Origin: Pseudomonadota bacterium
GTDB lineage: Bacteria; Desulfobacterota; Desulfovibrionia; Desulfovibrionales; Desulfovibrionaceae
Length of the DNA: 33,186 bases
Direction: 5' to 3'
NCBI GenBank assembly: GCA_018817515.1
Contig: JAHIUD010000020.1
Location: 1-33,186 of the forward strand
A program made the translations under genes and the position numbers. Within the stretch, counting starts at the first letter, position 1, and each line of letters opens with the position of its first letter. A model generated the notes under the pieces. It saw nothing but the letters and a program-made list of their open reading frames with translations, had not been told where the DNA came from and did not search any database. This document shows, piece by piece, positions 4,438 through 22,187 of this stretch.

Positions 4438-4544
4438 GGGGGGCTCCTTGCGTCCCGGCCTGGGACACGGGGTCATTTGATCATGAAACCCCCGGAGAGT
4501 CTAGGGACATGCATTTCTTGGCCCGGGTCGTGGCCGCGGTCCGC

Positions 4545-4573: not shown

Positions 4574-4643
4574 TTCGCCTGCGGTAAAGCCCGCCACCAT
4601 TGTTACGCCATGACACCACAGCAGTCCTCAAGGGGGATTCATA

Positions 4644-5225
4644 ATGTTGAACCGTATATATATTCGCGCTGCGCTTTGTGTTCTGCTTTTGGCCATGACT
4701 CTCGGCCTGGGGGCCTGCGCGTCCAACACCGTGGTGCAGCTGCGCTACCAGCCCTCCACGCCCCCCGCCGGAGCGGTCTGCGCCCAGTCCTTCACCGTCC
4801 TGCCCTTTGTGGACAAGCGCGCCGACACCCTGACCATCGGCACCCTGGGCGACGGCAAGCGCTACTACGCCGAGAACAACCCCGTGGAGTGGATCAGCTG
4901 GGCCATGTTCGAGGAACTCAAGGCGCGCGGCTGCGACGTAAAGTATCGCGAAAAGCCCGACGCCACGCCTCTTACCGGCTATGTCGTGTCCGGCTCCTTT
5001 GACAAGATCAACGTGGACCGCGCCCCCAGCCTCACCGTGCAGGCCGAGTTGCGCATGAACGTGAAGATCACCAAGGATGGTGAGTTCGTCGCCGAGAACG
5101 TCTACTCCGGCTCGCGCGAGGACATCGGCGTCACCATGGTCCAGGCCGCCCAGAGCGTGCTGGCTTCGACCTTGCAATATCTGATGCAGGACGCCGCAAC
5201 CAACATCGTCAAGGTCGCCAAGTAG
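4644..5225 (+). CDS. YajG-like outer-membrane lipoprotein
   Basis: A 193-residue protein starting at ATG 4644 after GGGGG. The signal peptide ends in a clear lipobox, LGAC (Cys25), so it should be lipidated and periplasm-facing. The mature part resembles YajG/Lipoprotein_16: a first strand with VLPFVDKRAD, a mid-region WAMFEELKARGCDV, then VSGSFDKINVD, VQAELRMNVKITKDGEFVAENVYSGSRED and a C-terminal helix ASTLQYLMQDAATNIVKVAK. The family has no well-defined molecular role. The sensor gene starts nine bases after its stop codon, so the two are probably co-transcribed. Confidence 0.85.
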   Translation: MLNRIYIRAALCVLLLAMTLGLGACASNTVVQLRYQPSTPPAGAVCAQSFTVLPFVDKRADTLTIGTLGDGKRYYAENNPVEWISWAMFEELKARGCDVKYREKPDATPLTGYVVSGSFDKINVDRAPSLTVQAELRMNVKITKDGEFVAENVYSGSREDIGVTMVQAAQSVLASTLQYLMQDAATNIVKVAK

Positions 5226-11038: not shown

Positions 11039-12388
11039 ATGGCAGATTCAAGAAAACCTTCGCGCCCCAACGCTCCGCGCAAACCTGGCCCGGCCAGAAA
11101 ATCGCGCCCCGGGCAGGGCAAGCGCGAGGATAACGAGTGGAGCTCCACCGGTCCCAAGCGCACTGGCGGGCCCAAGCCCGCTGGCACCGGCTACGCCCCT
11201 GGCAAGCCCGCAGGCAAGGGCCCCGGCAAGCCCGGCTCCAAGCCCGGCTCCAAGTATGGCGGCAAGCCCGGTGAGAAAAGCTCCGGCCCGCGCCAGGACA
11301 ATCGTCAGGACAATCGCGATGACCGCCGTCCTCCGCGCCAGGACGACCGCCGCCCGGCCCCCCAGCGTCCGGCCCCACAGCGTCCGGCCAAGGAAGCCGC
11401 CCGCAAGGTGAACGACGACTTCGATATCGACATCGATGTCTCCTTCGAGCGCGATCCCAATGAAGCGCCCGCCGCCTTCCCCAAGCCCGTCCGCCCGCCC
11501 AAGGCCTACGCTGGCGCGAAGTCCGGCGACCGCGACGCGCGCCCGCGCCATGAAAGCTCCGACAAGTCCGGCAGGTCGGACAAGCCCGGCAGGCCCGAAC
11601 GCCCCGGCAGGCCCGAACGGCCTGCCTACACCAAGGCCGCGCCCCGTGCCGAAGCCGAGCCCGAAGACGGCAAGAGCATCACCGCAGGACGCAACCCCGT
11701 GCGCGAACTGCTCGAGGCCGCGCCCAAGCGCATCGACACCGTGCTCGTGCGCAAGGGCCAGCGTGACGCCAAGGTCCAGGAGATCGTGACCCTGGCCGAC
11801 GACAACCGCATCAAGGTCCAGTTCGTGGACGACCTGACCCTGCGCCGCCTGTACTCCGGCAGCCACCAGGGCGTCATCGCCATCACCGCCGCCGTGGAAT
11901 ACGCCGACCTGGACACGCTCATCGCCAACATCAAGGACGCGCCCCTGCCCGTGCTCCTCGCCCTCGACCAGGTGCAGGACCCCGGCAACCTCGGCGCCAT
12001 GGCCCGCACCGCCTGGGCGCTGGGCGCAGCCGGAATCATCGTGCCGCGTCACGGCGGGGCCTACATCGGGGCCGGGGCCATGCGCTCCAGCGCCGGTGCG
12101 CTGCACCACCTGCCCGTGGCCCGCGTCACCAACCTGTCCCAAACCCTCGACACCTGCGCAGACGCCGGACTCTCCATCCTCTGCGCCGATGCCGAAGGCG
12201 AAAACCTCTACACCACCAGCATCCACCTGCCCGCCGTGCTCGTCATGGGCGGCGAGGGCAAGGGCGTGCGCCACGGCGTGGGCAAGCACTGCCAGCAGCG
12301 CCTCGCCATCCCCCTCAAACGCGCCTTCGACTCCCTGAACGTGGCCCAGGCCGCCGCCATCTGCCTGGCGAGGTTGGGGCAGTTGTAA
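11039..12388 (+). CDS. rlmB: 23S rRNA 2'-O-ribose methyltransferase (RlmB/TrmH family) with long disordered N-terminus
   Basis: A 449-residue protein, well above the roughly 250 residues usual for RlmB. ATG 11039 follows GAGG. Residues 1-210 are low-complexity and charged, with repeats such as GKPGSKPGSK, RQDNRDDRR, RPAPQRPAPQRP and GRPERPGRPERP; they resemble RNA-binding disordered tails. The SpoU substrate-binding and knot domains follow: SITAGRNPVRELLEA near 212, motif 1 LDQVQDPGNLGAMARTAWA near 308, motif 2 VMGGEGKGVR near 402 and motif 3 IPLKRAFDSLNVAQAAAI near 425. These are the SAM-binding trefoil-knot signatures. The target could be G2251 of 23S rRNA as for RlmB, or another rRNA/tRNA ribose; sequence alone does not settle it. 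Confidence 0.9.
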   Translation: MADSRKPSRPNAPRKPGPARKSRPGQGKREDNEWSSTGPKRTGGPKPAGTGYAPGKPAGKGPGKPGSKPGSKYGGKPGEKSSGPRQDNRQDNRDDRRPPRQDDRRPAPQRPAPQRPAKEAARKVNDDFDIDIDVSFERDPNEAPAAFPKPVRPPKAYAGAKSGDRDARPRHESSDKSGRSDKPGRPERPGRPERPAYTKAAPRAEAEPEDGKSITAGRNPVRELLEAAPKRIDTVLVRKGQRDAKVQEIVTLADDNRIKVQFVDDLTLRRLYSGSHQGVIAITAAVEYADLDTLIANIKDAPLPVLLALDQVQDPGNLGAMARTAWALGAAGIIVPRHGGAYIGAGAMRSSAGALHHLPVARVTNLSQTLDTCADAGLSILCADAEGENLYTTSIHLPAVLVMGGEGKGVRHGVGKHCQQRLAIPLKRAFDSLNVAQAAAICLARLGQL

Positions 12389-12399
12389 GAAAGAGAATA

Positions 12400-12443
12400 G
12401 CCTCCGGCGGCTGGGGGGCCTCAGGCCCCAGGCCGCAGGAGGC
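12400..12443. repeat. Intergenic hairpin related to the modular repeat (5' module)
   Basis: GCCTCCGGCGGC (12400-12411) matches the start of the 5' module seen at 13619. It opens a near-perfect 44-base inverted repeat: GCCTCC (12400-12405) pairs with GGAGGC (12438-12443), and GGGGCCT (12415-12421) pairs with AGGCCCC (12423-12429). It lies between rlmB and ispG. There is no T-run, so it is not a standard terminator. Confidence 0.65.
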
Positions 12444-12524
12444 ATCCCACGCTCCAGTCCCAGGGCCCCTGGTCTGGCAAGTCCGCACTTGGCGAACGGC
12501 GCGAATTGCGCTAGTCGTTTCGCC

Positions 12525-13616
12525 ATGATTGTACGCAAGGAAACGCGCGCGTTGAGCGTCGGGGCTGTGGGTGTGGGCGGGAGCAATCCTGTGCGCGTGC
12601 AGAGCATGACCAATGTGGATACGCGCGATGTGTTCGCGGCCAGCGCCCAGGTGGCTGAGCTGGCGCGCGCGGGCTGCGAGATCGTGCGGCTGGCCGTGCC
12701 GGACGAGGCGGCGGCCCAGGCCTTGGCGCACATCCGCAAGGATTCGCCGGTGCCGCTCATTGCGGACATCCATTTCGATTACCGGCTGGCGCTCATGGCG
12801 CTCACGGCGGGCGTGGACGGCCTGCGCATCAATCCGGGCAACATCGGCGGCAAGGCCAAGGTCGACGCCGTGGTGAGCGCGGCTGCCGAGCGAGGCGTGC
12901 CCATCCGCATCGGGGTCAACTCCGGTTCGGTGGAGAAGAAGCTCTTGGCGCGTTTTGGCGGGCCGACTCCTGAAGCGATGGTGGAGAGCGCGCTGGGGCA
13001 TGTGGCGCTTCTGGAAAAACGCAACTTTCACGCCATCAAGATTTCGCTCAAGTCCTCCAGCGTGCTGCACACCATCGAGGCCTACCAGCTTTTGAGCGCG
13101 CGCGTGGACTACCCGCTGCACATCGGCGTCACCGAGGCGGGCACGCTTTTGCCCGGCGCGGTGAAGAGCGCGGTGGGCCTGGGCGTGCTTTTGTATCAGG
13201 GCATCGGCGACACCCTGCGCGTGTCCTTGACGCATGACCCGGTGGCCGAGATCGGCGTGGCTTACGACATTTTGCGCGCGCTCGGCCTGCGGGAGCGCGG
13301 GCCGGAGGTCATCAGCTGCCCGACCTGCGGGCGTACGGAGATCGGGCTCATCGCCCTGGCCGAGGAAGTCCAGCGCCGTCTGCGCGACGTGCCCGAGGTC
13401 TTCAAGGTGGCGGTCATGGGCTGCGTGGTAAACGGACCCGGCGAGGCGCGCGAGGCCGACATCGGCATCGCCGGGGGGCGCGGCGTGGGCATCGTCTTCC
13501 GCAAGGGCGAGGTCATCCGCAAGATCCGCGGCGAAGAGAACCTGCTGCCCGAGTTCATGAAGGAAGTGGAAATATTTTTGAGTGAGCTGAGAGCCTCCGG
13601 CGGCCACAGAGCCTAG
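12525..13616 (+). CDS. ispG: (E)-4-hydroxy-3-methylbut-2-enyl-diphosphate synthase (IspG/GcpE)
   Basis: A 363-residue protein of normal short-form length, starting at ATG 12525. No strong ribosome site precedes it; an in-frame TTG at 12489 is the alternative. The TIM-barrel half has QSMTNVDTRD, IVRLAVPDEAAA, PLIADIHFDYRLAL and GLRINPGNIG. The iron-sulfur half has SCPTCGRTEIGL and VMGCVVNGPGEAREADIGIAGG, which carry the three Cys and the Glu that bind the [4Fe-4S] cluster. It converts MEcPP to HMBPP in the MEP pathway in the cytoplasm; dxs and ispA of the same pathway lie 15 kb downstream. The last eight codons (RASGGHRA) are encoded by a partial copy of the intergenic repeat found just after the stop. 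Confidence 0.95.
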   Translation: MIVRKETRALSVGAVGVGGSNPVRVQSMTNVDTRDVFAASAQVAELARAGCEIVRLAVPDEAAAQALAHIRKDSPVPLIADIHFDYRLALMALTAGVDGLRINPGNIGGKAKVDAVVSAAAERGVPIRIGVNSGSVEKKLLARFGGPTPEAMVESALGHVALLEKRNFHAIKISLKSSSVLHTIEAYQLLSARVDYPLHIGVTEAGTLLPGAVKSAVGLGVLLYQGIGDTLRVSLTHDPVAEIGVAYDILRALGLRERGPEVISCPTCGRTEIGLIALAEEVQRRLRDVPEVFKVAVMGCVVNGPGEAREADIGIAGGRGVGIVFRKGEVIRKIRGEENLLPEFMKEVEIFLSELRASGGHRA

Positions 13617-13768
13617 GCAGCCTCCGGCGGCCAAAGGGCCTGAGGCCCTCTGGACTCCCCATTTGGCTGCGATTTCTGCGGCGGAAACCGCCGCAGAAAT
13701 CGCAGCGAGCAAACGAGGGGGTCCGGGGGGAATCATTCCCCCCGGCGGGGTCCAGGGGCAGAGCCCCT
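13592..13768. repeat. Modular intergenic repeat, most complete copy (5' module, variable hairpin, 3' module)
   Basis: 5' module: AGCCTCCGGCGGCCA occurs at 13592 (inside ispG) and again at 13619, a 27-base tandem, then GGGCCTGAGGCCC and CTCTGGACTCCCCA up to 13661. Variable hairpin: 13666-13706, a perfect 19-bp stem (GCTGCGATTTCTGCGGCGG) with loop AAA. 3' module: CCGGGGGGAAT/ATTCCCCCCGG (13723-13745, one-base centre), CGGGGTCC, then AGGGGC/GCCCCT (13754-13759, 13763-13768). No T-run follows. Related pieces lie at 12400, 16733, 16874 and 22075. It fills the ispG-proS gap. Confidence 0.85.
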
Positions 13769-13838
13769 TGGCTGGGGTCCAGTGGGAGCGCCCCTGTGTG
13801 GATATCACATCAGTAATCTATGACATCTGGAGAATACT

Positions 13839-15584
13839 ATGCGTCTGTCCAAGACCTATGTCCCGACCCTGAAGGAAGTCCCGGCCGAGGCCGAGGTCAT
13901 CAGCCACCGGCTGCTGTTGCGCGCGGGATTCATCCGCAAGTTGACGGCCGGCATCTACACGTATCTGCCGCTGGGGCTCAAGACCTTGAACAAGGTGGCG
14001 GACATCGTGCGCGAGGAGATGGACCGCGCGGGCGCGCAGGAGATTTTGATGCCCATGGTGCAGCCCGGCGACCTCTGGCGCGAGACCGGGCGCTGGGAGT
14101 TCTACGGCAAGGAGCTGTTGCGCTTCCGCGACCGTCATGACCGCGATTACTGCCTCGGACCCACGCACGAGGAGGTCGTCACCGACCTGATTCGCGGCGA
14201 GGTGCGCTCCTACCGCCAGTTGCCGCTGAACCTGTACCAGGTGCAGACCAAGTTCCGCGACGAGATCCGCCCGCGTTTCGGGCTCATGCGCGGCCGCGAG
14301 TTCGTCATGAAGGACGCCTACTCCTTTGACCGCGACGAGGCCGGGGCCGACGCCAGCTATCGCGGCATGTACGACGCCTACAAGGCCATCTTCCGCCGCC
14401 TGGGCCTGGAGTTCCGGCCCGTGGAGGCCGATTCCGGCTCCATCGGCGGCAGCTTCAGCCACGAGTTCATGGTCCTGGCGGACACGGGCGAGGACACAAT
14501 AGCGGTGTGCCAGGCCTGCGAGTACGCGGCCAACATGGAGAAGGCCGAGGTGGTCTCGCCGGTGGACAAGTGCGACTGCGGTCACGACTGCGGCCCGGTG
14601 GTGGAGATCCCCACCCCTGGCAAGCACACGGTGGAGGAGGTCTGCGAGTATCTGGAGATCGAGGCGGCCACGCTGGTCAAGACGCTGCTGTTCGACGTGG
14701 ACGGCGCGCCGGTGGCCGGTCTTGTCCGCGGCGACCGCGACCTGAACGAGATCAAGCTGAAGAACCACCTGGGCGCGCAGGACGTGAAGCTGGCCACGCC
14801 CGAGCAGGTGGTGGCCTGGACCGGCGCGCCGGTGGGCTTTGCCGGGCCGGTGGGCCTGAAGGTGGCGGGCATCAAGATCGTGGCCGACCGCGAGCTGGAT
14901 TTCGACTGCGGCTGGGTCGTGGGGGCCAACAAGGCCGACGCGCACCTGAAGAGCGTGGACCTGCGGCGCGACTGCGCCATCGACGCCTACATCGACCTGC
15001 GCAACATCACCGAGGGCGACAAATGCCCGCGCTGCGGCGGGGCCATCGGCTTCCGGCGCGGCATCGAGGTGGGCCACGTGTTCAAGCTGGGGCTCAAGTA
15101 CTCCCAGGCCATGAACGCCGTGTTCCTGGACGAGAACGGCAAGGAGCAGACCATGGTCATGGGCTGCTACGGCATCGGCGTGTCGCGCATCGTGGCCAGC
15201 GCCATCGAGCAGAACAACGACGCCGAGGGCATCAAGTTCCCGCCGTCCATCGCGCCCTACGAGGTGGCGCTGTTGTCCCTCGGCGGCAAGGACCAGGAGG
15301 TCGTGGAGGCCGCGGACAAGCTGTACGCCGAGCTGACGCGCCACGGCATCGACGTGCTCTACGACGACCGCGACGAGCGCCCGGGCAGCAAGTTCAAGGA
15401 CGCCGACCTCATGGGCATGCCCATGCAGCTGGTGCTCGGCGGCAAGGGCCTGAAAAACGGCATCATCGAGGCCAAGGACCGCCGCACCGGCGAGAAGCGC
15501 GAGCTCAAGCTGGACGACTTCGCCTCCGAGTTCGCGTCCTGGCGGCGCACCGTGCGCCAGGGCTGGGGCCTGGACATCGATTAG
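13839..15584 (+). CDS. proS: Prolyl-tRNA synthetase, bacterial type with editing domain
   Basis: A 581-residue protein starting at ATG 13839, with GGAG seven bases upstream. The class II catalytic core shows [20 protein letters not shown] (motif 1 region), [39 protein letters not shown] (motif 2) and [20 protein letters not shown] (motif 3). Between motifs 2 and 3 is the INS/YbaK-like editing domain at about 235-375, with [21 protein letters not shown] and [16 protein letters not shown], which hydrolyses misacylated Ala-tRNA(Pro). The C-terminal anticodon-binding domain has [20 protein letters not shown]. Length and architecture are normal for the bacterial form. The M48 lipoprotein gene begins 25 bases after its stop and is probably co-transcribed. 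Confidence 0.96.
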
Positions 15585-15609
15585 GCGAAGCCCTGGCCGG
15601 GGACTGCCC

Positions 15610-16689
15610 ATGCGCGCGCGCAAACCCTTCCGCTGGCCCCTGGCGGCCTTGCTTGCGGCCCTGTGCCTGGCGGCCCTGGCGCTGACGGGCTGCGCTTCCG
15701 CTGCTGGTCCGGGCCCGGCTGAACCCACTGCCAAGTCAGCTGGCGGGGCATCTGGCGGGGCTGGCCCCCAGGCCACGCCCGAGGCCCGGCGCGAGGCCGA
15801 GCTCCAGCGCGAGTTCGCCGCGCAGACGTACTACGAGCGCCTGGACCGGCTGAATGCCGTGGCCTGGCCGCTGGCCACCGCAGGCGAGCCCCTCTGCCGC
15901 CAGCGCGGCCGCGTCCACCAGAGCCTGGGCCTGGTGGCCGACTCCTTCAACCGCCGCGACAACCGGCGCTGGTTCGCGGCCCTGAGCGGCCTGTGGGGCG
16001 TGGGCGAGGACACGCCGGTGGTCATCGGCGTCATGCCGGGCGGCCCGGCGCATCTCGCCGGGGTGCGGCGCGGCGATGTGCTCCGCGCGGCAAAGGGCAA
16101 GCCCCTGGATGTCTCCGGCAATTCGGCGGACCTGACCCGCAGGCTGGACGACCTGGCCGCAGGCGGGCCGGTGGACCTGGAGCTTGTGCGCGCGGGCAAG
16201 CCGCTCACCCTGACCATCCCCGCGCCCAAAGCCATCTGCGACACGCGCTTCACCGTCATCTTGGGCGACGCCGTCAACGCCTACGCCGACGGCAAGAACG
16301 TCTTCGCCACCTATGGGGCCATGAACCTTTTCGCCAAGGACGAGGACCTGGCCGTGGTGCTCGGCCACGAGCTGGCCCACAACATCCTGGGCCATGTGCG
16401 CCAGGACGCGTCCGGAAAGGCCACGGGGGCCACCACCCCGCAGCAGGAGGCCGAGGCCGACGCCGTGGGCCTGTACTTCACCGCGCGCGCCGGGTTCAAC
16501 ATCAAGGACGCGCCGGGCGTCTGGCGGCGGCTGGCCGCCCAGAACCCCACGCACATCAGCGCCGGGGGCGACCATCCCTCCACCGCCGCGCGGTTCCTGA
16601 ACCTGGAGGCCGTGCGCGACGAGATCCTCATGCGCCAGGCCGCCGGGCTGCCGCTCATCCCCAGACCCAGGGTGGCGCCAACGCAGTAG
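15610..16689 (+). CDS. Lipoprotein M48-family metalloprotease with PDZ domain
   Basis: A 359-residue protein from ATG 15610. The signal peptide ends in a lipobox, LTGC (Cys28). Residues about 130-200 form a PDZ domain (VVIGVMPGGPAHLAGVRRGDVLRAAKGKPL). The peptidase M48 zinc motif is HELAH at about 253-257, with the third ligand in EAEADAVGLYFTARAGF near 282. The protease should sit in the periplasm attached to a membrane, with PDZ guiding substrate binding. BepA/LoiP-type quality control is the closest known role, but those proteins differ in domain order, so the function is inferred. The C-terminus (DHPSTAARFLNLEA) is typical of M48 lipoproteases. Confidence 0.9.
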   Translation: MRARKPFRWPLAALLAALCLAALALTGCASAAGPGPAEPTAKSAGGASGGAGPQATPEARREAELQREFAAQTYYERLDRLNAVAWPLATAGEPLCRQRGRVHQSLGLVADSFNRRDNRRWFAALSGLWGVGEDTPVVIGVMPGGPAHLAGVRRGDVLRAAKGKPLDVSGNSADLTRRLDDLAAGGPVDLELVRAGKPLTLTIPAPKAICDTRFTVILGDAVNAYADGKNVFATYGAMNLFAKDEDLAVVLGHELAHNILGHVRQDASGKATGATTPQQEAEADAVGLYFTARAGFNIKDAPGVWRRLAAQNPTHISAGGDHPSTAARFLNLEAVRDEILMRQAAGLPLIPRPRVAPTQ

Positions 16690-16873
16690 GCGGCCAGCAG
16701 GACCGGGAGCCGGGAGCGGGGAGATTCCCCTGGCGGCCAAGGGCTCTGCTGTCCTGTGGAATCCCCAATGGGCTGGGCCGGTGGGGCCAGGGCACAGGCA
16801 TCGGCTGGGTTGGCCCTGTTTTGAAGCAAAGGCGAAGGCCAAGGGAAAGACGCTCTTCCGTGATTCCTCAAAA
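16690..16873. other. Gene-free stretch after the M48 gene with a decayed 5' repeat module
   Basis: No convincing ORF. GCGGCCAAGGGCTCTGCTGT (16733-16752) followed by CCTGTGGAATCCCCAATGGG aligns with the 5' module at 13627-13666, with substitutions, so it looks like a degraded copy. The remaining bases are GC-rich with only short inverted repeats. Confidence 0.5.
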
Positions 16874-16955
16874 GCCGAAAGGGCTGCTCCGGGTTCCCCC
16901 TGGGGCAGCCCTTTCGGCGTACTGGGGAGTCCAGAAGGCCTCAGGCCTCTGGCGG
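16874..16955 (-). repeat. Modular intergenic repeat, inverted copy (5' module plus variable hairpin)
   Basis: A perfect 14-bp stem, GCCGAAAGGGCTGC (16874-16887) with GCAGCCCTTTCGGC (16905-16918), is followed by GGGGAGTCCAGAAGGCCTCA (16924-16943) and GGCCTCTGGCGG. Read on the minus strand this is the 5' module (CCAGAGGCCTGAGGCC, TCTGGACTCCCC) then the hairpin, in the same order as the copy at 13619-13706. The stem is unrelated in sequence to the other copies. On the minus strand it is followed by TTTTGAGG, so it might also terminate transcription. Bases 16956-17077 hold no other feature I can name. Confidence 0.75.
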
Positions 16956-17077
16956 GGAGCTGGTGCCGCATACGCGCTTCTGTGCGGGCGTAAGAACCAT
17001 TTTACCTTGAAACAAAGCTGGATACGTGCCAGTGTAAATGACGTTGCTTGGAAAATTCTATCTAAGGTTGTGATATC

Positions 17078-18373
17078 ATGATGAAATCTATGAATGCTGT
17101 CCTGGTCGTCCTGTGCCTGGCCCTGATGATGACGGTGCCTGCGGCCCAGGCCGGACAGGCGGTCAAAGGCGTAGTCAAGACAGTAAAGAAACAGAAGAAG
17201 TTCGATGCGCACGAATCCTTTGCCAGGCTGCACTTCACCGACCAGGAGATGGACTTCGCCTTCGCCCTGATCCTGGGCGCCACCATGAACCATGGTTGCG
17301 AGATCGGCGAAGCCTACTACGCGGCCACCAACATCAAGGAAGGCAGCGCCGCGAGCTGGCAGGACGAATGGATCAAGATGGGCCAGCGTGTCGAGGCCAG
17401 GGGTGAGGCTTCCCTTGCCGGGGGACACCGCGTCAGCGCCCGCGAGCAGTTCCAGCGCGCCTCCTACTACTACCGCGCCGCCCTCATTTCCATGCTGCCG
17501 GACGCGAAATTCAAGGCAACCGCCCTGAAGAGCCGCGAACTGCTGAAAAAGGCCGGAACGCTCTTCAGCCCCCCTCTGGAGTACATCGAGATTCCCTTCG
17601 AAGGCACGGTCATGCCGGGCTACTACCGCAAGGCGGATTGCGGCGCCAAGCAGTGCAAGACCCTGGTCATGCTCGGCGGCGGCGAAACCTTTGCCGAGGA
17701 TCTGGTCTTCTACACCGCCCCCCAGGCCTATGACCGCGGCTACAATTTCATCACCGTGGATCTGCCCGGGCAGGGCCTGCTGCCCCTGGAAGGCAAGGTC
17801 TTCCGCGCCGATGTCGAGGTGCCGGTCAAGGCCGTGCTGGACTACGTCTTGAGCAGGCCCGAAGTCGCGCCGGAAATGGTTGCCGCCTACGGCATCAGCG
17901 GTGGCGGCGGTTTTGTGCCCAGGGCCGCCATGCACGATGCGCGCATCAAGGCCATCGCCATGAACAGCGCCGTGGTCGACGCCTATCCGCTGTTCGCGTC
18001 CATGCCCGTGGCCACTGCCACAGAGGACATCATTCGCGGCTGGTCGACCTTCAAGCAGAATACCGTCAGAGCCATCGCCTGGCGCTGGGGCGTCGACATG
18101 CACAATATCCCCGGCCTTGTCCCGGCCAACAAGGGCTTCGACTTCGATCCGGCCAAGATCGCCGTGCCCGCGCTGCTCATCGTGGGCCAGGGTGAATACT
18201 CCAACGCGGAAGTCAAAAGACAGCAGAAGCTCTGCTACGACACCCTGCCCGGCAACATGAAGAAACTGGTGGTCACCCCGGCCAACGAGGGCGCCTCCAA
18301 CCACTGCATCACCGAGAACCGCAGCGTCATGAGCCTCGTGGTGTTCGACTTCTTCGACGAGGCCTTCAAGTAG
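17078..18373 (+). CDS. Secreted alpha/beta hydrolase (FrsA/DUF1100-like)
   Basis: A 431-residue protein; ATG 17078 and ATG 17081 are adjacent and either may start it. A Sec signal peptide (AVLVVLCLALMMTVPAAQAG) predicts export. The N-terminal helical part (about 40-165) has WQDEWIKMGQRVEARGEASL and REQFQRASYYYRAAL, the pattern of 2,6-dihydropseudooxynicotine hydrolase/FrsA-like esterases. The hydrolase core follows: IEIPFEGTVMPGYYRK, LVMLGGGETFAEDL, ITVDLPGQGLLPLEG, and the nucleophile elbow YGISGGGGF with Ser274. The C-terminal part has LLIVGQGEYSN and the likely catalytic His409 in ASNHCI. The acid may be the Glu of GQGEY or a nearby Asp. The substrate is unknown. It stands alone between two long gaps. 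Confidence 0.85.
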   Translation: MMKSMNAVLVVLCLALMMTVPAAQAGQAVKGVVKTVKKQKKFDAHESFARLHFTDQEMDFAFALILGATMNHGCEIGEAYYAATNIKEGSAASWQDEWIKMGQRVEARGEASLAGGHRVSAREQFQRASYYYRAALISMLPDAKFKATALKSRELLKKAGTLFSPPLEYIEIPFEGTVMPGYYRKADCGAKQCKTLVMLGGGETFAEDLVFYTAPQAYDRGYNFITVDLPGQGLLPLEGKVFRADVEVPVKAVLDYVLSRPEVAPEMVAAYGISGGGGFVPRAAMHDARIKAIAMNSAVVDAYPLFASMPVATATEDIIRGWSTFKQNTVRAIAWRWGVDMHNIPGLVPANKGFDFDPAKIAVPALLIVGQGEYSNAEVKRQQKLCYDTLPGNMKKLVVTPANEGASNHCITENRSVMSLVVFDFFDEAFK

Positions 18374-18711
18374 GGGGTCGGGAGCCTGGACCTGAAGCGC
18401 GGCAGGGGCTTTCACGCCATGCGTCCCCCTTGGGCAGCCACGCTAATCCTCGGCTCCCACGCTGATCATCCCTTCACGCGTTGACTTTCCGCTCCCGCTC
18501 GAACATTCGGCAATGATGCGGTCCTTCGGTCGCCGCGAGGGCCGTCGGCCCTTGCGCAAAGCGAGAAAGCGATCCAATCTCCGACTCTTGCCTGCTCCTG
18601 GCCGCCCCCTGTCTCGACCCTGGGCCGCCAGGTACGGGCCGTTTTGTCAGGCGGTGGCGTCCGACGACATACGCAAACGAATCGCCGGGCGAGAAATGTT
18701 GCGGACACATG
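18374..18711. other. Gene-free gap between the hydrolase gene and the DUF2325 promoter
   Basis: No ORF with a ribosome site or coding composition. GGGAGCC (18380-18386) and GGCTCCC (18452-18458) form a distant 7-bp inverted repeat without a T-run. I see no tRNA, repeat copy or known riboswitch core here. Confidence 0.4.
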
Positions 18712-18741
18712 TTGACATTGAATTTCAATTTCAATTAGAAG
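18712..18741 (+). promoter_or_regulatory. Candidate promoter with Fur-like operator upstream of the DUF2325 gene
   Basis: TTGACA (18712-18717), an 18-base spacer and TAGAAG (18736-18741). The spacer is almost entirely the 19-base element ATTGAATTTCAATTTCAAT (18717-18735). On the other strand this reads as hexamers ATTGAA, ATTGAA, one base, TTCAAT, the 6-6-1-6 layout of a Fur box. Repressor binding would cover both promoter hexamers. The AT-rich element stands out in GC-rich surroundings. Fur assignment is an inference; PerR or another regulator is possible. Confidence 0.55.
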
Positions 18742-18835
18742 ACGGCGACGGAGCAGAGGGCGTCGTGTCGCCGCGCCCGCCAAGCTCATGCACCAAGGAC
18801 TCACACCAAAGACTCGCACACATCCGGAGGCTGTC

Positions 18836-20059
18836 ATGATCAAGCGCAACATCTGGGAACACACGGACTACCACTGTCCCATCGTCGGCACCTGCCTGAG
18901 CACGGGAGAGCTGCGCAAGCTCGCGGCGAAGATGCGCCTGGAGTTGCCCGAGGCCCTCTCCGATTATGAGCTGCACGGCTGCTTCGTCGGGCTGGCCAAA
19001 CGCCCGGAACGCCCGGCCCGCATCCTGCAAAAATATCTCGACCGCAAGTACGCCCGCCAGCTCAAGCGGATCTCCAAGGCCAGCGGCGACGAGGAACTCT
19101 GGCGGCTTTGGACGGAATATGCGGACGCGGGAGACATCCCCGGCGCGTTCTGGGCCATGATGCGCCACCCGGAGGCCTCAGAGGCTGTGCTCAACCAGAT
19201 CTACGGGGAAGTGCACATGCTCTCGCATCTGGTGGGGGCGTCCACCAGGGCGGAACTGCGGCGTCTTGCCGAGAGCGAGGCCAGGGTGGAAGTTCTCACC
19301 GAGGCCCTGGCCCGGCGCAAGGTCACCCTTCGCGAGGCCGTGGGCGTGTGGAAGCGGCGCACCCTGGCCCTGGAGCGCGAGGTCAGCGATGAGCGGGCCA
19401 AGCGGGCGCAGGTCGAGCGCGAGCGCGTGTCCCTGCGCGAGATAATCGAATCCCGTGCCGTTTCGGAGCTGGAAGGCCAATTGGACGCCCTGCGCGGACA
19501 GCTGGGCAGGCAGGCCGACCAGCTCGTACAGGCCGAGATCGACAGCCGCCGCAAGTCCGGCATCATCGAGACATGCTACCGGGAGGAGAAGACCCTGCGT
19601 GGCGCCCTGGCCGCGAGCGAGCGCGAGGTGGCGGCCTTGGAGTTGACCCTGCTGGACTCCATGAGCGCCGTCGCCGGGTGCGACGCCGACTGCCAGGGGC
19701 CCGCCTGCGCCGTGAGCTGCGCCGATCCTGCGGCCTGCCCGTGCCCGCGTTTGAGCGGCAAGCGCGTGCTCTACGTTGGCGGGCGCAGCGGGCTCAAGGG
19801 CCAGTACCGCCAGCTTGGCGCGCGTTTCGGGTGCGAGCTGCTGCACCACGACGGCGGGGTGGAGCAGTCGCCGCACCGCCTGCAGCAGATGCTGGCAAGC
19901 GCCGACGCCGTGGTCTGCCCGGTGGATTGCGTGAGCCACGACGCCTGCTCCACAGTGAAGCGGCTGTGCCGAAACCCCATGAAGCCGGTGCTCTTCGCCC
20001 GGTCTTCCGGCCTGTCGAGCCTGGCTGCGTCCCTGGCCGAGCTGGAGCGGGTCTGCTGA
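18836..20059 (+). CDS. DUF2325 domain protein with coiled coil
   Basis: A 407-residue protein starting at ATG 18836, with GGAGG six bases upstream; an in-frame ATG at 18788 lacks a site. The N-terminus has HTDYHCPIVGTCLSTGELRKLA, a His/Cys motif typical of longer DUF2325 proteins and possibly metal-binding. Residues about 150-275 are a long charged coiled coil (LAESEARVEVLTEALARRKV, REVSDERAKRAQVERERVSL). A Cys-rich patch follows (GCDADCQGPACAVSCADPAA), then the DUF2325 domain from about 307: KRVLYVGGRSGLKGQYRQLG, HHDGG, ADAVVCPVDCVSHDACSTVK. The molecular role of the family is not established. The promoter's Fur-like site suggests control by iron or peroxide. It appears monocistronic. Confidence 0.85.
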   Translation: MIKRNIWEHTDYHCPIVGTCLSTGELRKLAAKMRLELPEALSDYELHGCFVGLAKRPERPARILQKYLDRKYARQLKRISKASGDEELWRLWTEYADAGDIPGAFWAMMRHPEASEAVLNQIYGEVHMLSHLVGASTRAELRRLAESEARVEVLTEALARRKVTLREAVGVWKRRTLALEREVSDERAKRAQVERERVSLREIIESRAVSELEGQLDALRGQLGRQADQLVQAEIDSRRKSGIIETCYREEKTLRGALAASEREVAALELTLLDSMSAVAGCDADCQGPACAVSCADPAACPCPRLSGKRVLYVGGRSGLKGQYRQLGARFGCELLHHDGGVEQSPHRLQQMLASADAVVCPVDCVSHDACSTVKRLCRNPMKPVLFARSSGLSSLAASLAELERVC

Positions 20060-20480
20060 AGGCGTCATGCGCCGGGAGCCCCCTTTAGGGTTCATAACGT
20101 CCACCCCGCCCCCCCTTCGGCCCGCCGTGGCCCCCCGCTATCCAGGGTCGAGGGGGGCTCGGCTCTTGGTCTGGCCCTGGCCCTGCGCAGGAGTGAAACA
20201 ATGACCTGGGCTGCACCGTCCTTACGAGAGGGGGCAGGCGCAAGCGTCTTGATTCTTCGCCTTTCGCGAGCCTCTGCACGCAGGTGAGCCCGGGGGCTGG
20301 CCCTGTGCCCTCCCTGATGTATCTGCTCAAGGGCGCAGCGAGATGGTCCTCCGGCACCGGCAAGAAACATGGGCAAAGGACACCGTACGCCCCAAGCTCG
20401 CCCATCTTGCGGCCGGGCCCCCGGCACGGATCGCCTCTGGAATAGTCGCCAGCCGTTTTGCGGGGGGCGGGGAATTGTTC
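20060..20480. other. Gene-free gap between the DUF2325 gene and the second PilX-like gene
   Basis: No convincing ORF. GCCCCCC (20130-20136) and GGGGGGC (20152-20158) form a 7-bp stem about 70 bases after the DUF2325 stop; it may be a terminator stem, but no T-run follows. The remaining bases show no recognisable RNA or repeat. Confidence 0.4.
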
Positions 20481-20509
20481 TTGAACGTTGCGTCCACACT
20501 GGATATTCT
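20481..20509 (+). promoter_or_regulatory. Candidate sigma70 promoter of the second PilX-like gene
   Basis: TTGAAC (20481-20486), a 17-base spacer and TATTCT (20504-20509). It lies 37 bases before the ATG at 20546, which is itself preceded by AGGAA. This supports the ATG at 20546 over longer frames. Confidence 0.5.
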
Positions 20510-20545
20510 CTCCAACATACGATGCAGCGCACACAGGAACCCGGC

Positions 20546-21952
20546 ATGAACATCCCCCCAAAGGCCCTGCGGCAACGTGGCAGCATCCTTGTCTATCTCG
20601 CCCTGGCGTTGGTGCTTTTTGGCGCCTTTGCCATGGCCGGGGCCTCGCGGTTTGGCGCAAGCATCGTGGGCGTGTCCCTGCCCAATTGCGCCACCCAGGC
20701 CAGGTACATGAGCGAGGCCGGCATGCGGTACGCCTTGGCCCGGCTGCGCGCCTGCACCACCGAGGCCGAGGTGAACGCGGCAGTGGCGCAGATGAACGGC
20801 GTCACCTTCACGGTGGACGCTGCCAAAGGACTGACCTTTACCCCGGCAGTGAGCTACAGTTCCGGCACCGGTCTGGCCACTGTCGCCTCCTCAGGCCGGG
20901 GTTGCCCGGGCGCCTTGTCCGTGCCTGCCTCCACAGCAGCTTCCAGCGTGAACCTGCCGGGGATCAACACCGCTTCGGAAGCGTCGACGTCTGAGGCCCT
21001 GAAAGGAACCTACAGCGGCACCTCTGCAATCGCCGCAGGCTCCATGACGGGGAATCTCACGACATCCTCAGCGCGGATCAGCGGCGGGACGAGCATCGGC
21101 GGCTCTGTGAATTATCTTGAGACTGGCCCAACGTGCCTCCAAATCGGTGGTGGCGCTATGGTCGGCACTGTGGGCAACAGCAATTACGTCTGCTCAGAAA
21201 CGTGTGTTGTCGTCGGTGGCGGGGCAACAGTGAATGGCAACATCTATGCCCAAGGCGACGTCAATGTCTCGAGCAAGGTGAATGGCGATATTTATTCTGG
21301 CGGCGATGTGCACCTTTCGTGGGGTGCAGAGGTCTCAGGCAATATCTATGCGCATGGCACTTTCAGCACGCCACCGTACTCTTCATTGTATGCTGGGACT
21401 GTAACGACTGGCTATGCAAAGCCAAACCACTGCGCAACCTATACTCTTCCTGCCCATACGACAGTTCCTTCCAATATTAAACTGAATATTGGTTCAAACA
21501 CGTATACGTTTATTGGGTCGACAGACCTCTCCGACAAAACAAATGCCTTTTCTTCCATCACCACTGGCGGTGGTTCGAAAATTTGTTTTGATCTGTCACT
21601 TCCAGACTCGTACATAAACATATTCAGCAAAGGCTCAATGACAATCAATGGTGACATTTATGTGCGCACATCAACAACAAGTCAATGTTTTGATGGTGAA
21701 AACAAGGTCACAAACGTGAATTTTGCAAAATATGCTTATGCCAAGCGTGTCTATATGGATGTCGGCGGGACTGTGTCGTTTAATGGCGGCAGCAACTGGT
21801 TTGGTACCATCTACGCCGCAGATAACATCTACCCTGGCAGCGGTGGAGTATACATCGGCGCTTTCTATACAAATAAAGCATACAACCCTGGCAGCTCCTG
21901 GAGCACCAGCCGCTTCGTCCCTTCGGATTACGTGGCAAAGTACTGGCCGTAG
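20546..21952 (+). CDS. Orphan PilX-like protein with beta-helix-type repeats
   Basis: A 468-residue protein from ATG 20546 (AGGAA upstream). Residues 10-70 are closely similar to the N-terminus of the protein at 1-2053: RGSILVYLALALVLFGAFAM, GASRFGASIVGVSLPNCATQ and ARYMSEAGMRYALARLR. The rest differs completely. From about residue 170 there are short Gly-rich strands of the kind seen in right-handed beta-helices or polymer-forming proteins: VVVGGGATVNGNIYAQGDVN, VNGDIYSGGDVHLSWGAEVS, GNIYAHGTF. Codons from about 21100 to the end are visibly AT-richer than the N-terminal half and the neighbours. Likely exported and membrane-anchored through its N-terminal helix, as a pilus-associated subunit. 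No other pilin gene is adjacent. Domain function is not recognised. Confidence 0.82.
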   Translation: MNIPPKALRQRGSILVYLALALVLFGAFAMAGASRFGASIVGVSLPNCATQARYMSEAGMRYALARLRACTTEAEVNAAVAQMNGVTFTVDAAKGLTFTPAVSYSSGTGLATVASSGRGCPGALSVPASTAASSVNLPGINTASEASTSEALKGTYSGTSAIAAGSMTGNLTTSSARISGGTSIGGSVNYLETGPTCLQIGGGAMVGTVGNSNYVCSETCVVVGGGATVNGNIYAQGDVNVSSKVNGDIYSGGDVHLSWGAEVSGNIYAHGTFSTPPYSSLYAGTVTTGYAKPNHCATYTLPAHTTVPSNIKLNIGSNTYTFIGSTDLSDKTNAFSSITTGGGSKICFDLSLPDSYINIFSKGSMTINGDIYVRTSTTSQCFDGENKVTNVNFAKYAYAKRVYMDVGGTVSFNGGSNWFGTIYAADNIYPGSGGVYIGAFYTNKAYNPGSSWSTSRFVPSDYVAKYWP

Positions 21953-22074
21953 TCAGCCGGATGCGTCTGCCGCCTTTGTGCACGTCAGAACGTCCTCCTG
22001 GATCGTTTTAAGTCACAGGCTCATGGCCTGGGGTGCCATGTCTCCCCTCGCGCCTCTCCTCCTGCCTCAGCAAA

Positions 22075-22187
22075 GCGAAAGGTTCCTGTTGACGGCTTTG
22101 CGTCAACAGGAACCTTTCGCGTAATGTGGGGGTCTGGGGGAAATCATTTCCCCCAGCGGGGTCCAGGGGCGGAGCCCCTGGTGGCTC
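22075..22187. repeat. Modular intergenic repeat (variable hairpin plus 3' module)
   Basis: A perfect 20-bp stem (GCGAAAGGTTCCTGTTGACG, 22075-22094) with loop GCTTTG and its complement to 22120. After seven bases comes GGGGGTC, then the palindrome CTGGGGGAAAT/ATTTCCCCCAG (about 22133-22155), CGGGGTCC and AGGGGCGGAGCCCCT. This is the 3' module of the copy at 13723-13768; two stem positions differ from that copy on both sides, keeping the pairing. It lies between the convergent PilX-like gene and lrgB and may end transcription from both, though it lacks T-runs. Confidence 0.82.

Follow-up and report, generated by a model that had tools for sequence, protein, structure and literature searches.

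Composite palindromes behind gene ends in Humidesulfovibrio and its relatives point to a probable rewriting of each hairpin arm from its partner

The stretch of DNA analysed here (the window) comprises 33,186 bases of the Humidesulfovibrio-like genome of a sulfate reducer, and the gaps between its genes harbour copies of a repeat built from several hairpins. A complete copy, of the type that we call A, lies on the plus strand at 13620–13771, in the gap between the codirectional genes ispG and proS. It consists of an end module followed by H1, a hairpin of 23 nucleotides (nt) (CCAAAGGGCCTGAGGCCCTCTGG, 13631–13653), a variable core hairpin with a perfect stem of 19 base pairs (bp) and the 3-nt loop AAA (13666–13706), the 23-nt hairpin H3 (CCGGGGGGAATCATTCCCCCCGG, 13723–13745) and the 20-nt hairpin H4 (CCAGGGGCAGAGCCCCTTGG, 13752–13771), all on the plus strand. 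A second copy, assigned to neither strand, covers ~225 nt at 16731–16956, with borders set by eye against other long copies. It harbours the type B core hairpin GCCGAAAGGGCTG...CAGCCCTTTCGGC at 16874–16918 (no strand), in which 14 perfect pairs are followed by T.G and CC/GG (17 bp with one mispair), and an inverted H1 module, recognised by pattern match on the minus strand at 16930–16953. The last one comprises a type C core hairpin at 22075–22120 (no strand), with a perfect 20-bp stem and the 6-nt loop GCTTTG, followed on the plus strand by H3 (CTGGGGGAAATCATTTCCCCCAG, 22134–22156) and H4 (CCAGGGGCGGAGCCCCTGG, 22163–22181). A first-pass annotation had already placed modules and stems of 19, 14 and 20 bp at these positions, and its coordinates proved correct. 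These stems are exactly the three hairpins that score at least 13 over the 33,186 bases, against two in total, and at most one each, in 60 dinucleotide shuffles.

Smaller pieces of the repeat surround ispG. In the rlmB–ispG gap, at 12400–12443 (no strand), two inverted end modules (GCCTCCGGCGGC, a hairpin, and GGCCGCAGGAGGC) form a small palindrome of 44 nt without a core; a partial 5' module had been reported here, and the site is present, but it corresponds to this palindrome. It is likely a remnant left by deletion of the core, since the rlmB–ispG gap of L061 carries a 394-nt element (L with a number denotes a locus fetched for comparison and G with a number a genome, G000 being that of the window), and that of L062 a type C element. 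The right part of the 16731–16956 element also matches L061. An additional end module, GCCTCCGGCGGCC, lies on the plus strand at 13593–13605, within the 3' end of ispG (stop codon at 13614–13616). The ispG frame terminates within repeat sequence in two genomes (13593–13616 in the window and near 11068–11090 in L060), and to judge from the sequence the repeat element seems to donate the last codons and the stop of the gene in both.

The repeats form a non-coding family of composite palindromes, in which a full element is a series of hairpins: the end module GCCTCCGGCGGC, H1 (CCAAAGGGCCTGAGGCCCTTTGG and variants), the core, H3 (GGGGGAATCATTCCCCC and variants) and H4 (CAGGGGC...GCCCCTG). The flanking modules are themselves hairpins, of 23 nt for H1 and H3 and of 20 nt for H4. 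With regard to the core, type A has a stem of 17–22 bp bounded by CCCCATTTG and CAAATGAGGGGG, the long type (~300 nt) combines two hairpins, D (GTGCGCG...CGCGCAC) and B (GCCGAAAGGGCTGTTTCAGG with its complement), and type C is made of GCGAAAGGTTCC and its complement. One copy of each is present in the window, type A at 13620, a long one without D at 16731 and type C at 22075. The partial module (16733) and the stem (16874) noted earlier do exist, but they read as one long-type element lacking its first hairpin. The stems look unrelated from copy to copy because the window shows a single copy of each type; the three are indeed mutually unrelated, as had been reported, but each type recurs in the genome. 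The stronger claim, that the hairpin differs in every copy, does not hold. Among 63 type B hairpins (two others with fewer than 13 paired bases, out of register through an insertion or deletion, were left aside), 33 share both arms, 46 are fully paired, and there are 15 distinct 5' arms. The idea of a conserved frame enclosing a variable but paired core is supported, and most frame columns around H1 are at least 90% identical across 31 type A copies. The GCCTCCGGCGGC ends are inverted in many copies, yet several end variants and one-ended copies exist.

A 24-nt pattern of the 5' module, allowing up to three mismatches, has 60 matches in the 3.61-Mb genome, and the reversed pattern none. BLAST searches of the same genome returned 92 matches at E ≤ 10 with copy 1 and 131 at E ≤ 1 with the long copy L017, and the matches merge into 72 clusters; in 63 of them a hairpin of score 13 lies no further than 200 nt away. 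In a comparison of IspG proteins, the nearest named relatives include a Humidesulfovibrio metagenome-assembled genome (L063, 90% identity). Copy 1 has matches at E 0.01 in 30 of 58 related genomes besides its own, including all 14 congeners, and the frame surrounds unrelated perfect stems in members of two further genera of the family (21 bp in L047 of G027, 15 bp in L049 of G029). Such stems are not general among relatives. When each of 23 others was represented by its single best locus (L037–L059; eight congeners and 15 others), five had a long stem inside the frame (the congeners L039, L042 and L045, and L047 and L049 among the others) and two a hairpin whose relation to the family is doubtful (L058, L059). 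A match to a single module is all that many of these loci show. Several draft contigs (G008:C64, G008:C39, G011:C107, C334, C335 and C365) end inside elements or within about 25 bases of them; the repeats seem to break draft assemblies, and the true number of copies may be higher than counted.

Outside these genomes, the phage sequences searched gave no match to the repeat, and a plasmid search gave partial matches to three records (two Pseudoroseomonas, one Streptomyces), which cover 23–31% of the query. The plasmids of the alphaproteobacterium Pseudoroseomonas cervicalis (L270 and L271, near 1501–1551) carry an H3 and H4 module without the variable core, at 83–90% identity and in both cases between convergent genes. 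Rfam yielded a tRNA as its sole match in the window and, for four element loci, nothing above threshold (best E 0.043, 27 bits for a gathering score of 90). The titles and abstract openings searched, a scope that leaves out most subscription journals, hold no description of the family.

The elements are found behind the 3' ends of genes in Humidesulfovibrio and its relatives. With neighbours predicted by a home-made codon-based gene caller, 42 of the 72 clusters are convergent, 26 tandem, two divergent and two one-sided, and five overlap a predicted gene end; all adjacent non-overlapping gene pairs in the same stretches, element gaps included, divide into 191 tandem, 56 convergent and 42 divergent ones. 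Placement differs with the type of core. Type A copies are tandem in 22 cases out of 23, with one divergent and no convergent case. D-bearing elements (n = 59) are convergent in 44 cases, tandem in 10, divergent in one and one-sided in four, and B hairpins (n = 63) in 47, 13, two and one, respectively, all these pooled counts being non-independent as orthologs repeat. In G000 alone, and considering convergent and tandem gaps only, convergent placement is seen for 0 of 10 type A and 25 of 31 D-bearing elements (Fisher p 7e-6).

The stems change their letters and remain paired. In a set of 21 type A stems of 41 nt (which excludes L150 with 20 bp, L181 with 17 bp and some later-fetched copies), 97.5% of 399 cells are paired and 51 cells are changed on both sides. 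In 30 D stems of 42 nt (26 distinct), taken from 59 D-bearing elements, 97.6% of 494 cells are paired, with 80 both-side changes. None of 500 shuffles reaches such values in either set. Folded singly, 55 of the 59 D-bearing elements form at least 17 pairs, G-U being allowed. G-U is not in excess over A-C among the mispairs: among 2229 pairs there are 21 G-U, 19 A-C and 17 others (6, 5 and 5 of 399 in type A, 5, 5 and 7 of 570 in D, and 10, 9 and 5 of 1260 in B). G-U should outnumber A-C if selection acted on RNA from one strand, as it does in five tRNAs from the fetched loci, where 10 G-U stand against 0 A-C among 102 pairs.

The gaps of related species, whose comparison had been recommended at the outset, reveal the same behaviour at single sites. 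From 35 type A copies, selected for their flanks and for a hairpin of 11 bp or more (a choice that misses stemless copies and L182, with its short stem) and free of any mismatch in 20 cases, 10 groups of sites with common flanking genes across species were obtained; many element sites are common to several species, with a best flank identity of 76–93%. In a table of 22 ortholog pairs over eight groups, set by the authors and treating L032/L248 and L199/L242 as one gap by assumption, 308 base pairs are the same, 72 show paired double changes, 30 single changes and eight unpaired double changes. The paired double changes are of transversion type in 45 cases and of transition type in 27. As only the latter can pass through a single G-U intermediate, the 45 transversion-type pairs speak against that path. 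In one gap, represented by L168, L195 and L033, a single pair differs (T-A, A-T and C-G, respectively), L033 having one further mismatch; 7 of 19 pairs differ between L170 and L196, every one still paired, and six between L178 and L035, five of them paired. L170 and L196 also carry an ordinary T-tailed terminator (4608–4648 and 4441–4480, respectively), whose 16-bp stem is identical letter for letter with a changed loop, in contrast to their type A core, which changes.

Orientation and presence of the core vary as well. In seven of the 10 groups the core is oppositely oriented in at least one species, although two of these groups may represent a single gap; four groups were confirmed by eye, and the L150 group turned out to have a single orientation. 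A comparison of L181 with L194 shows unmoved outer modules around an inverted block of H1, core and H3, the stem of which differs. Presence or absence of the element is found in the ispG–proS gap, which contains type A in G000 and G012, and in G011 an inverted copy cut by the contig end. In G008 a type A copy stands at the contig end on the proS side and the contig end on the ispG side begins another core, and in G013 a 3' module alone adjoins proS. No type A module is present in G002, G003 (with a run of N inside), G005, G010 and G014, where the whole gap was viewed, nor in the stretches beside proS in G001, G004 and G009 (in G001 also beside ispG), where the gap was seen in part; the query found no match in G007, and G006 was left out. 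The content of this gap varies widely by species, with a reading frame in G003 (L258), which we take to resemble an NADPH-dependent reductase or flavodoxin, and other sequence in G010 (L262).

Further marks concern the loops and flanks. Loops of type A, when brought into a common orientation (n = 35), read TCC in seven copies, GGA in six, TTC in six, GAA in three and otherwise in 13, and in three type B copies (L061, L219 and one in L148) the loop appears by eye to be flipped relative to the flanks. The orthologs L033 and L168 can be aligned over 3.2 kb, at 87%. In L033, however, the left arm has become complementary to the right one together with its flank, and the resulting stem of 37 bp contains one mismatch. 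Flank bases of type B copies are symmetric at 12 of 12 positions in L217 and 9 of 12 in L166, compared with at most seven in the other 61 copies.

With respect to function and mobility, a terminator scan found no terminator-like site at any of the three window stems, and type A has no T-run beside its stem on either strand, in line with the lack of T-runs pointed out earlier. A simple intrinsic terminator is consequently rejected for type A. The earlier argument against terminators is less secure for the long elements, as the 8-nt tail of type B has at least four T in 50 of 63 copies on one strand against 4 of 63 on the other, and weak termination by these elements is possible. The search for a RAYT-like transposase, likewise proposed in the first-pass annotation, found no match to PF01797 (Y1 transposase) in G000, which is 95% complete, while 5 of 14 control genomes have one, and mobilisation by RAYT is rejected on this ground. 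No target-site duplication was recognised by eye at the copies viewed, no systematic test having been made, and beyond 22 aligned element ends only the last few bases are A/T- or purine-rich.

The lack of a G-U excess, the transversion-type paired changes, the two-way loops and the rare flank copying suggest that rewriting takes place at the DNA level. We propose that a mutated arm is overwritten from the opposite arm during DNA synthesis, by a template switch in a hairpin or cruciform; the core would stay a near-perfect stem despite its changing letters because of this overwriting. The same process would flip the loop and occasionally copy flank sequence to the other side, and, together with recombination between copies, it may invert or swap the whole core cassette. 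The hairpin itself is probably retained for insulating neighbouring transcripts, through 3'-end protection or weak two-way termination, which is the weakest step of the proposal. Rewriting may keep the stems paired while selection keeps the element, both acting together. The first-pass annotation had listed a site of hairpin rewriting among its ideas, and given the paired changes and the ortholog differences it is the one that fits best. Overall, we lean, with modest confidence, towards ERIC/REP-like composite palindromes at gene ends that are kept perfect by template switching between their arms. The fuller picture, in which genus-wide self-templating hairpins have their stems continually rewritten and their cores inverting in place at fixed gaps, so that structure and not sequence is inherited, with two classes fitting codirectional and convergent genes, is offered tentatively and is rather doubtful.

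A number of observations weigh against arm-to-arm rewriting. It is not constant, since the arms are the same in 33 of 63 type B stems and near-identical stems, with one and two single changes only, are found in the window and L250 and in L032 and L199, respectively. Shared stems, or modules without stems, had been named beforehand as counting against a variable core, and both occur in part. The former are seen in many copies; as to the latter, 9 of the 72 clusters have no such hairpin, and 16 of the 23 best loci of relatives have none scoring at least 13 in the scanned stretch. Our confidence is slightly reduced because identical stems make up just over half of type B and long stems are absent from many module matches in relatives. 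Opposite orientation mostly accompanies a different stem, which fits exchange with another copy. Clear flank copying is rare (L033, L217 and partly L166), and these three loci come from draft assemblies, in which repeats are prone to mis-joining. As for the counts, those of pairs are not independent, the A and B collections were chosen partly for having a hairpin, the D set omits 29 of the 59 D-bearing elements (stems bulged or of other length), and its number of pair types is unremarkable, 86 of 500 shuffles reaching it. The tRNA control is small, and that of ordinary terminators yielded two pairs only, one of them misregistered.

The main alternative is that selection acts on an RNA hairpin or a two-strand hairpin (a bidirectional terminator or a stabiliser of mRNA 3' ends), which ordinary compensatory mutations keep paired. 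It would accommodate the strong placement behind genes, with 42 convergent and 26 tandem among 72 clusters, the split of core types by gene context, the conservation of most frame columns about H1 in the 31 type A copies, and the T-rich strand of type B, which, in the 13 tandem cases, coincides nine times with the gene strand and four times with the opposite one. The balance of mispairs, too, is explained by its two-strand form, as G-U and A-C would be equally unfavourable in hairpins that are transcribed, and selected, on both strands; for one-strand RNA the missing G-U excess (21:19) remains a difficulty. Paired changes that are of transversion type in 45 of 72 cases, flank copying and loop flips without evident RNA function, and the lack of a T-run next to type A stems on either strand are also hard to reconcile with such selection, which we regard as possible but on the whole unlikely to be the explanation.

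Entire cores could instead be swapped by ectopic recombination or gene conversion among copies, giving orthologous gaps new stems. The opposite orientations seen in 7 of the 10 groups, which mostly come together with another stem, and the unmoved outer modules of L181 and L194 are what such exchange would produce, but the same-orientation orthologs L168 and L195 differ by one paired change, L033 retains its own flanks while one arm changes, and the origin of variant paired stems is left unexplained; as the source of the pattern, exchange seems improbable. Active MITE- or REP-like transposition, in which each insertion brings its own hairpin, is very unlikely: it would agree with the many copies, their inverted ends and the presence or absence at ispG–proS, but not with a genome devoid of Y1 transposase matches, with target duplications going unrecognised on inspection by eye, or with the many sites common to species at a best flank identity of 76–93%.

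Similar systems help to place template switching between the arms. ERIC/IRU and other enterobacterial small mobile repeats are intergenic, have many copies of 100–170 bp and have been likened to MITEs (PMC2759123, PMC2229807). The elements studied here are likewise short, intergenic and present in many copies, a resemblance in size and place, but they are set apart by a modular frame, by cores of several types and by stems that vary from ortholog to ortholog. REP elements have one conserved REP sequence. REP/REPIN elements associated with RAYT are extragenic palindromes with many copies and mosaic units (PMC2817692, PMC3116915); the present family shares the extragenic palindrome in many copies (72 clusters, five overlapping a predicted gene end), whereas its genome has no Y1 transposase match and its stems are paired but variable. 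Place and shape appear to match ERIC/REP palindromes, while the evolutionary behaviour seems unusual, and we claim no membership in those families.

How long hairpins stay paired amid sequence change is an old question (PMC8794818). In inverted repeats of yeast, template switching yields arm homogenization and spacer inversion (PMC8604942), both of which have counterparts here, although the yeast case concerns coding genes in one species and ours one repeat family across bacterial species. According to PMC8794818, template switching can maintain RNA hairpins with multi-base compensatory change, and such change combined with loop inversion, named as the strongest possible support for its model, was extremely rare in the RNA genes studied there. 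The palindromes resemble those hairpins in their multi-base compensatory changes, loop inversion and arm repair, and differ from RNA genes in being bacterial intergenic repeats with the main loop triplets in both orientations. Paired multi-base changes, arm copying and loop inversion, the marks expected of template switching, are all present, arm copying in few cases, and as read from sequence comparisons they fit template switches from one repeat arm to the other. A family that has dozens of copies in a genome, together with conserved flanks, cross-species sites and two-way loops, would allow direct measurement of arm-to-arm rewriting in bacteria, and the split of its types by gene orientation offers a handle on what such palindromes do at gene ends.

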